From: an uncultured Treponema sp.
GTDB lineage: Bacteria; Spirochaetota; Spirochaetia; Treponematales; Treponemataceae
DNA: 10,015 nucleotides
Reading direction: 5' to 3'
NCBI GenBank assembly: GCA_905236315.1
Contig: CAJOPO010000145.1
Span: 1 to 10,015, forward strand
Below, in pieces: positions 8,363 through 10,015 of the stretch. Below the pieces are notes generated by a model. The model was not told where the DNA came from and searched no databases. It saw only the letters and a program-made list of their open reading frames with translations. Position numbers and translations under genes: made by a program. The stretch's first letter is position 1. Each line of letters opens with the position of its first letter.

Positions 8363-9700
8363 TTATGGTCTAACAATAACCTTTTCAAGATTAGGACGCT
8401 TTACAAGGTCTGCCTTTAAGCCTTCCTCTCTAGCCTTGTTTACATAAGATGGGTCTTGGAAGCTATAAGTAAAGTTTGTATGAACATCATAAGTGCCTTT
8501 CATAAGGGCATAGGCATCTTCTGTCATAACAAGCTCTTCATCAGTTGGAATAACAAAAATCTTTGTTGCGCTATCATCTGCACTTATGCAAGTTTCTGCG
8601 TTTCCTGTAAAACTCCATTCATTCTTTTGTGAATCAATCTTAATGCCATAATTCTCTAAGCCTGAACAAGCCTTAAATCTTGTAATAGGACCGCGCTCAC
8701 CAACGCCTGCTGTCCAAACAATAGCGTCTACATGACCTAGCTCTGCCATGAATGCACCAATGTATTTCTTTATGCGCAAGGCTTCCATTTCTATAGAAAG
8801 TTGACAAAGTTTATCTCCTTTTGCTGCTTCTATTTCTATATCGCGCCTATCACTAAATCTGCCTGTAATGCCTAAGCAGCCTGATTTCTTATTTAATGCA
8901 GTGTCCATTTCATCAGCAGACATACCTGTTTTGCGCATTATATAAAAAGGAAGAGCTGGGTCTAGGTCGCCTGAACGGGTGCCCATAACAAGTCCTTCAA
9001 GAGGGGTTATACCCATTGTGGTGTCATAGCACTTACCATTTTTTACTGCACACATAGAAGAGCCATTACCAATGTGGCAGATGATAAGATTTGTATCTTC
9101 TGGCTTTTTATGCAAAAGGACGGCAGCCCTCTTTGCTGTGTATAAGAATGATGTACCATGGAAGCCATAGCGACGAGCAGCATATTTTTCGTACCATTCG
9201 CGAGGGATGGCATACTGGAAAGTTTCCTCTGGCATAGTCTGATGCCATGCTGTATCCATAATAGCGGAGTGAGGAATATTAGGCATAACCTTTTGTGCAG
9301 CTTCTATACCCATAATATTTGCAGGCATGTGTAAGGGACCTAAATCTATTACAGAGCGGAATGTGTCTAAAACTTCTGGAGTGATAAGAACGCTCTTTGT
9401 AAATTTATCTCCTCCATGCAATACTCTGTGACCTACAGCAGAGATTTCGTCCATAGACTTAATAACCCCAACTTCTGGGTCTGTAATTTCTTTAATGATA
9501 AGTTCTATAGCTTCTTTGTGTGTGGGGCAGGGGCTTTGTATTTCTGTTTTTTTTCCTTTTGCCTTATGAGTTATGCAACTTCCTTCTATACCAATGCGTT
9601 CTACAACGCCATTTGCCATAACTTCTTTATTATCCCAATCGTATACTTGATATTTTGCAGAAGATGAACCGCAATTCAATGTTAAAATTACCATAGCCAT
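8363..9700 (-). CDS. ackA: Acetate kinase
   Basis: Cytoplasmic acetate kinase interconverts acetyl phosphate plus ADP with acetate plus ATP, the ATP-yielding last step of fermentation to acetate. Family signatures are intact: NCGSSSAK (9-16), GHRVLHGG (90-97), DTAWHQTMP (149-157), YGFHGTS (178-184), GNGSS (211-215), GTRSGDLDP (240-248) and TDEELVM (386-392). These supply the expected Asn9, Arg92, Asp149, His181, Arg242 and the C-terminal glutamate (388/389). The 445 residues exceed the roughly 400 of E. coli and archaeal enzymes; most of the excess is a tail after about residue 403. The start at 9700 has GAGG 6 nt upstream; an ATG two codons later is less well spaced. No phosphotransacetylase gene is adjacent. 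A consensus promoter lies upstream. Confidence 0.97.
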
Positions 9701-9788: not shown

Positions 9789-9842
9789 TGTACAACTAAG
9801 ATATTTTTGTATGTTGCCTCTGCTTTGAAAGGTCGGTATGAG

Positions 9843-9904
9843 TGACGTATATACGTCAGTATGTGCGACATGTACATGTCGGTGGGGGCGACGTGTACAC
9901 GTCG
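9843..9904. repeat. Three 16-bp palindromes at exact 23-bp period
   Basis: TGACGTATATACGTCA (9843-9858), CGACATGTACATGTCG (9866-9881) and CGACGTGTACACGTCG (9889-9904) are each perfectly self-complementary and start exactly 23 bp apart, with spacers GTATGTG and GTGGGGG. A further GTCG followed by GTATGAG (9832-9842) precedes the first, like the end of a decayed fourth unit. Differences between units occur at symmetric positions (1/16, 5/12, 7/10) and always keep the symmetry. The third unit can also pair in a larger GGGGCGAC/GTCGC..CCCC stem (9884-9916). They lie 55-121 bp upstream of the ackA -35 box. Function unknown: dimeric-protein sites or RNA hairpins. Confidence 0.9.
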
Positions 9905-9937
9905 GTCGCTTCCCCCTTTATACTTGTGTTTAAGGGA

Positions 9938-9965
9938 ACCTCTAAAAATTGCAATTTTTAGAGGT
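9938..9965. repeat. 28-bp perfect palindrome
   Basis: The 14-base arms (ACCTCTAAAAATTG and its exact complement) meet with no loop, centred between 9951 and 9952. As RNA on either strand the inner bases could form an AT-rich stem closed by G-C pairs at the base. There is no downstream T-run. It has the look of an intergenic palindromic repeat. Confidence 0.85.
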
Positions 9966-9982
9966 AACTTTGAAAATGCGAT

Positions 9983-10015
9983 GTTTTAATTCCTGCTATT
10001 ACCAGGAATTAAAAC
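9983..10015. repeat. 33-bp inverted repeat at the window edge
   Basis: GTTTTAATTCCTG (9983-9995) and CAGGAATTAAAAC (10003-10015) are perfect 13-bp arms around a 7-nt loop (CTATTAC), ending on the last base of the window. The GTTTT...AAAAC ends and 33-nt length resemble a CRISPR repeat, but only one copy is visible and no cas gene is present, so this is listed as an inverted repeat only. A hairpin terminator of a gene beyond the edge is the plainer alternative. Confidence 0.8.

Follow-up and report, generated by a model that had tools for sequence, protein, structure and literature searches.

What are three adjacent perfect palindromes upstream of an acetate kinase gene, and what keeps them in so exact a register? 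The question is raised by a window of 10,015 nucleotides, the whole of contig 145 of a 2.57-Mb Treponema genome (546 contigs, 84.5% complete), in which three 16-bp palindromes follow one another at a step of exactly 23 bp (Table 1). This layout is seen directly in the window sequence, as the first-pass annotation had described it: all three units are perfect (3/3), they differ mutually at pairs 1/16, 5/12, and 7/10, and both the G-run ahead of unit 3 and the C-run at 9912-9916, which had been suggested to form a larger stem, are present. The array is located 142 bp upstream of ackA, and a TetR-family gene is also encoded in the window. The family does not fit a CRISPR array, as its 16-bp units vary and its spacers are 7 bp long. 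No named element had been recognised in this pattern, and none surfaced in the Rfam and literature searches made here; the portions available to us of the literature on Treponema palindromic or tandem repeats, dispersed modular repeats, and 23-bp palindromic repeats contained no matching element.

Table 1. Features of the window array and its setting (positions in the 10,015-nt window).
Feature	Position	Strand	Description
Other element end	9831..9842	.	GGTCGGTATGAG; sister copies C156 and C259 have a half-unit here
Element by family model R1	9837..9916	-	E 7.2e-22; the window copy is among the 27 elements building R1
Palindrome unit 1	9843..9858	.	TGACGTATATACGTCA; family pattern matched exactly
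7-bp spacer	9859..9865	.	between units 1 and 2
Palindrome unit 2	9866..9881	.	CGACATGTACATGTCG; family pattern matched exactly
7-bp spacer, G-rich	9882..9888	.	before unit 3
Palindrome unit 3	9889..9904	.	CGACGTGTACACGTCG; family pattern matched exactly
Element end, 7-bp spacer + CCCCC	9905..9916	-	minus-strand reading GGGGGAAGCGAC; 21/28 oriented copies have a G-run at this position
ackA, acetate kinase (PF00871)	8363..9700	-	neighbour only

A second repeat occupies positions 9929-10015 of the window and consists of two hairpins (GGGAACCTC..GAGGTAACTTTGAAAATGCGATGTT..hairpin), with a copy on C425 that is 98.8% identical over 86 bp. Variants with different yet paired stems occur on C33, C107, and C276 and in the congener G118 (L067), and C236 also carries the repeat of this type common to C33, C107, and C276; the copies are often located at contig ends.

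A dispersed modular repeat in one Treponema species

Dispersed and mostly intergenic, the modular repeat to which the window array belongs has spread in one Treponema species by whole-element copying. The search of the genome and its relatives that the first-pass annotation had proposed was productive: the 2.57-Mb genome contains the family pattern YGACRTRTAYAYGTCR in exact form 39 times and its reversed control 0 times, so the window array is not a product of chance, and the 59 relatives hold a single match (G030, within a 2,673-nt ORF). Chaining the units in 23-bp register gave 28 arrays. Of these, 26/28 are clear of every selected ORF of ≥300 nt, and mechanical ORF calling puts an overlapping ORF at the arrays on C187 and C234; "intergenic" thus rests on crude gene calls, since the less strict counting of any stop-to-stop frame of ≥360 nt marks as covered 7/21 period-23 arrays that Tandem Repeats Finder (TRF) located in this genome. 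The family model finds 28 matches here, with some arrays split in two and some missed. Among 199 congeners, it scores strongly at one further locus, in G118, and matches weakly in seven more genomes.

Oriented elements typically run from GGGGGAAnnnAC through YGACRTRTAYAYGTCR units with 7-bp spacers to TTCCCCC in some copies. They are modular, a G-run end being joined to one to five palindromic units of 16+7 bp. The G-run was present at the left in 21/28 oriented copies, the C-run at the right in 7/28, and both in 5/28, counts that include some copies truncated where a contig ends or aligned in a different register. Half-units fused to the G-run also belong to the family, and several copies carry a second end type (GTCATTG...GATTAGTATACT and similar). 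No target-site duplication was evident when copies were inspected by eye.

Copies at different loci preserve the arrangement of the element. The window array is 89.5% identical over 86 bp to that on C156, which is 92.6% identical over 95 bp to that on C259; the window and C259 give a longer alignment at 72.5% identity. The window (read on the minus strand), C156, and C259 share their unit order, and therefore whole elements were copied to new sites. The interval between dnaA and dnaN measures 261 bp with its array here and 26-240 bp in the 25/29 relatives' loci where both genes were found. Since these 25 loci hold no unit with fewer than three mismatches, the dnaA-dnaN array is a gain in this lineage.

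Thirty scanned neighbours, among them dnaA/dnaN, a parA-like gene, tRNA synthetases, transporters, helicases, and a permease-kinase, share no theme, and a regulon reading was rejected for lack of a common function. The dnaA-dnaN array (L014:5898-6351, G000 C126) is perhaps near the origin region, and another array lies upstream of the parA-like gene (L011:2051-2135).

Several known elements have a comparable organization. REP/BIME and REPIN elements with their RAYT transposases are dispersed intergenic palindromes, including multi-unit arrays, and a DNA-binding protein gene is linked to class members. The arrays studied here resemble them in being dispersed intergenic palindrome arrays with a DNA-binding protein gene linked to some members, but the linked protein is of HU type (see below), the 23-bp register is exact, and the sequence is wholly different between families. 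RAYT mobilisation was rejected because the genome, at 84.5% completeness, has 0 matches to the Y1 transposase (Y1_Tnp, PF01797). The BOX elements of Streptococcus have the structure boxA-boxB(n)-boxC with a 45-bp inner box; distinct ends and a variable number of inner units are found here too, a likeness of layout, but the inner unit is a 23-bp palindrome and the ends are G-run and C-run motifs. MITEs are short, have no gene of their own, and occur as copies at many loci. The window repeat is likewise short, geneless, and present at many loci, including one syntenic site where it is extra DNA relative to relatives; it differs in its tandem palindromic core and in having no known cognate transposase, and it may differ in its ends, with the G-run and C-run both found in 5/28 oriented copies, and in target-site duplication, of which none was seen by eye. 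A phage or plasmid origin was rejected, as no match was found in phages or plasmids; the exact tandem pattern also had no match in viral contigs or in genome contigs, a set from which the window's own genome was perhaps excluded.

Symmetry and pairing within the family

The first-pass annotation stated that every change between units is matched on the opposite side, and took this as a sign of selection or of a process regenerating palindromes. The matching is complete in the window array, but across the family the pairs vary independently. Among the 39 exact units, the three variable pairs are Watson-Crick 16, 28, and 19 times, compared with 18.5, 28.2, and 22.7 expected, and perfect palindromes number 6 against 9.3 expected. 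Three of these six are the window's own; without the window, the count is 3/36 against 9.1. No other array among the exact units tabulated has all three units perfect, so singling out the window array overstates the symmetry. Asymmetric decay in related strains had been named as evidence against a function; the asymmetric variation observed here is among other copies within the same genome.

The 27 aligned elements point the same way: 76.7% of their cells pair, compared with 75.7% in shuffles (reached by 70/500 shuffles), the covariation score is reached by 49/500, and no covariation measure is clearly separated from shuffles (49 to 201 of 500 reach the observed value). Covariation at the RNA level was therefore rejected for the window's family by pair counts and shuffles alike, and the family lacks the compensatory changes that identify a structured RNA. 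Pairing between units was also rejected, with fewer pairs than in shuffles for U2-U3 (327 versus 346, sd 5.9) and with 344 versus 349.6 for U1-U2 and 478 versus 489.3 for U1-U3. Nearly all changes in the family are transitions at G/C positions, and A/T positions hardly vary, a contrast that is partly ascertainment because the unit-picking pattern leaves six positions free.

The 23-bp step and its HU-DUF4469 neighbours

The strict step, also pointed out in the first-pass annotation, reaches well beyond this family: the same 23-bp step occurs with quite different sequences in other Treponema and in Bacteroidales. The weak model matches in seven congeners consist of tandem repeats that differ in sequence, are mostly palindromic, and keep a 23-bp step, apart from a partly 28-bp step in G101 and a single 24-bp step in G104. 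TRF found 12 non-ORF arrays of period 23, 7 of period 22, and 6 of period 21 in 1,718 kb of congener samples, and at most two for every other period from 14 to 60; several of the sampled contigs had been chosen for array matches, and the arrays in G104, G132, and two in G197 are new. That in G104 (L169) combines a 16-bp palindrome, TTATTAACGTTAATAA, with 7 bp and is listed by TRF as period 46. De novo scans for palindrome chains were weak, with L169 alone looking like a real array among six new candidates. Because of this, and because several samples were match-selected, the conclusions here draw on TRF and free-gap patterns. No non-ORF period-23 array was found in a small sample of the order's other families (257 kb). 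Period-22 non-ORF arrays of 4.7 to 6.8 copies in congeners (L175:15145-15294, L202:7643-7747, and L230:7932-8034) perhaps form a related class.

When the gap of TCCGN5CGGA pairs was left free from 2 to 30 in eight congeners, it was exactly 10, the value for a 23-bp step, in 17/19 forward matches; the matches belong to five arrays, and those of G021 and G108 look orthologous. The public genome set contained 36 loci with three units of this type at a 23-bp step (by record title, 19 Bacteroidota, 5 spirochaetes, 8 actinobacteria, and 4 others), in a scan that covered the 23-bp period only and for which we estimate an expectation of ~0.001 with uniform bases. CGGGTGYCG pairs, with the gap free from 2 to 32, showed the 23-bp step in 29/29 matches, which were spread over 12 places in six Bacteroides/Parabacteroides/Spirochaetaceae genomes; the reversed control matched in 3/6 of these genomes (1, 1, and 14 matches, spacing unlisted).

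In this mainly Bacteroidales family, the pair beside the fixed core is Watson-Crick in 42/42 tandem units, compared with 23.6 expected (C-G 30, A-T 9, G-C 3), and it changes also within single arrays; the two pairs beyond it are nearly invariant, and at the fourth there is no pairing (8/42). Stem covariation with a conserved loop is thus real in the class and absent from the window's family, and it concerns mainly one pair and few independent events. The expectation that symmetric change reflects selection or palindrome regeneration is not supported in the window's own family; compensatory change is seen in the mainly Bacteroidales one. Within-array covariation at the scan loci gave p 0.025 when all pairs were counted and p 0.84 when those of the seed were excluded. 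Eight actinobacterial loci and one from Phycisphaeraceae were set aside before the neighbour and covariation tests, and four Treponema scan loci were also left out of the latter.

In Treponema, 23-bp arrays are enriched beside HU-DUF4469 genes. When ORFs in the vicinity of 63 array loci were clustered, two groups stood out: XRE-type HTH genes, and genes for HU-domain proteins that carry a DUF4469 Ig-like domain (PF14848, PF18291, and PF14734). The latter belong to the HU-HIG/HU-DUF4469 family and adjoin arrays in Treponema and, among Bacteroidales, at two loci. Across the 1,718 kb of congener samples, a local HU model found six HU genes, 6/6 within 1.5 kb of an array, although 5/6 are on contigs chosen for array matches, four of them beside already-known arrays, and only that of G132 comes from an unselected genome. 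The HU-linked array in G101 has chiefly period 28, together with a 23-bp step.

A search of 200 congeners gave an HU match in 91/200, and the next 20 HU genes by score were taken array-blind with 1.2 kb per side where the contig allowed. TRF detected a period-23 array in 7/20 of these windows, compared with 9/469 control windows (p 5.6e-7) and 1/58 ackA/dnaA windows (p 2e-4), in a sample that leans towards proteins like the array-linked ones because the query alignment was built from them. The other 13/20 had no 23-bp array by TRF. The number of independent HU-array cases is about six, because L347 and L348, from two genomes, share a unit and T. parvum supplies three of the cases; apart from the L347/L348 pair, the array units beside HU genes differ among windows. 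In the 15 listed HU-array pairs, the array starts ≤28 bp from the HU stop codon in 8 and lies 117 to 1,432 bp away on the 5' side of the HU gene in 7. By eye, the L209, L338, and L347 arrays have a YTRTRY loop in common, and their paired stems are quite unlike one another. Within-array covariation in ten HU- or HTH-linked arrays was not above shuffles (p 0.14).

Several observations weigh against such a link. Among the 27 scan loci kept after nine were set aside, an HU-DUF4469 gene abuts the array at 2 and lies within 1.5 kb at 2, and ten neighbours scanned at nine other loci included none. For the present genome the link is indirect: it has one HU-DUF4469 match, and the examined flanks of its 28 arrays contain no HU gene; the window array accordingly shares the exact period and palindromic unit of the wider class, and its examined flanks lack an adjoining HU-DUF4469 gene. 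G118 has an array, yet it is absent from the 91 genomes with an HU match. In viral contigs, 62 stretches matched an HU search pattern and 0 were confirmed. A related solved structure (4fmr) is named "uncharacterized hypothetical protein".

Three HU-DUF4469 paralogs of T. parvum (G072: L338, L339, and L344) are 91, 88, and 77% identical to the G132 protein, and each is followed by a 23-bp array of different sequence. XRE/Cro-type HTH genes adjoin 23-bp arrays in several Treponema (L265, L281, L282, L284, L138, and L133), flanking the arrays on both sides at L265 and L281. In G101 (L168 / L138), hairpins of the GTCCCTGNCAGGGAC type occur at both 28-bp and 23-bp steps and adjoin an HTH-HU gene pair.

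Putative loading sites and competing readings

We tentatively propose that the arrays are putative loading sites for HU-DUF4469 (HU-HIG) type proteins, whose geometry would set the 23-bp step; such binding is inferred from the constancy of the step while the sequence changes and from the HU-type gene being the most clearly associated gene in Treponema. HU proteins prefer bent or cruciform DNA. The 23-bp step would correspond to the footprint of a dimer of this type, and dimers might load side by side along the array. Palindromy would then mirror the dimer or reflect recognition of extruded hairpins or cruciforms. Sequences may differ through specificities peculiar to individual proteins or lineages, or because stem sequence counts for less than structure and loop. 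The 28 arrays of this genome would all be served in trans by the product of its single HU-DUF4469 gene found.

Nearly as likely is that the arrays are non-autonomous mobile or passively amplified palindromic repeats of MITE, REP, or BOX kind with no host function, whose step is inherited within families and with which HU genes share a niche or which they help move. Whole-element copies at unrelated loci, modular ends, the species-specific amplification (28 arrays here and one locus in G118), scanned neighbours with no common function, and the extra DNA at dnaA-dnaN relative to 25 relatives all agree with this possibility. It leaves unexplained the exact 23-bp step in unrelated sequences of two phyla and the HU link, and the genome has no Y1 transposase match. 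A role at the RNA level, with tandem 3' untranslated hairpins acting as terminators or mRNA stabilisers, seems improbable. Several HU-linked and Bacteroidales arrays do begin a few bases past a stop codon, T-runs end some G021/G108 arrays, and folding on the two strands gives z -7.2 and -6.1 for C276 and z -4.1 and -2.3 for C156. The window array itself folds only modestly below shuffles (z -2.6 and -2.2), its family shows no covariation, and neither the window nor nine loci reach an Rfam gathering score. Moreover, the arrays of this genome face gene 5' ends 26 times and 3' ends 15 times, as raw counts over neighbours of known side with no background computed, and loop orientation relative to the nearest-ending gene is mixed (5 versus 3 at eight Bacteroidales loci, by eye). 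GU-versus-AC polarity differs between arrays, as an RNA element would allow (chi2 p 8e-4, from small and related counts). Replication-strand mutation as its cause was rejected, since the polarity is uncorrelated with contig GC skew; it correlates weakly with TA skew (p 0.02) and spacer composition (p 0.003).

Two further readings carry very little weight. An array of dimer sites serving as the operator of a local regulator, such as the product of the TetR gene adjoining ackA, would suit the palindromic 16-bp sites, the TetR-family gene in the window, and the XRE-type HTH genes that adjoin several arrays of other Treponema. Such control is very hard to reconcile with 28 arrays beside unrelated genes (dnaA/dnaN, parA-like, tRNA synthetases, and permease-kinase), some of them downstream of genes, and no perfect 16-bp palindrome is present upstream of ackA in the 17/29 relatives with a readable ackA start. 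It is equally far-fetched that quasi-palindrome correction by template switching, in line with the copying mechanism suggested in the first-pass annotation, maintains the symmetry alone. Each window unit differs from its C259 sister by exactly one change, which makes the unit symmetric, and correction could have produced this; a perfect ancestor with decayed sisters would fit equally, and perfect units are rarer than chance in the family once the window is removed.

The loading-site proposal can be extended to a two-part system common to Spirochaetota and Bacteroidota, an extension that we regard as more doubtful. Fast-diversifying HU-DUF4469 (HU-HIG) proteins would be paired with hairpin-forming tandem arrays; the protein would fix the 23-bp step, the loop would be conserved, and the stems would change compensatorily, structure being read rather than stem sequence. 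Copies may then spread intergenically as genome-wide loading sites, as they possibly did in this Treponema. Burroughs and colleagues reportedly described in 2017 the expansion of HU proteins in Bacteroidetes and proposed a role against invasive elements. To our knowledge, the HU-HIG proteins expanded in Bacteroidetes have no known target, and the part of the HU-DUF4469 literature available to us names no DNA target for the family; the association of HU-HIG genes with 23-bp arrays was new to us. A fixed 23-bp spacing with wholly changed sequence suggests a protein or structure of rigid geometry with a loose or fast-changing sequence preference. The arrays beside some HU-HIG genes are a concrete candidate target, which would tie a protein family common in gut bacteria to a recognisable DNA signature.
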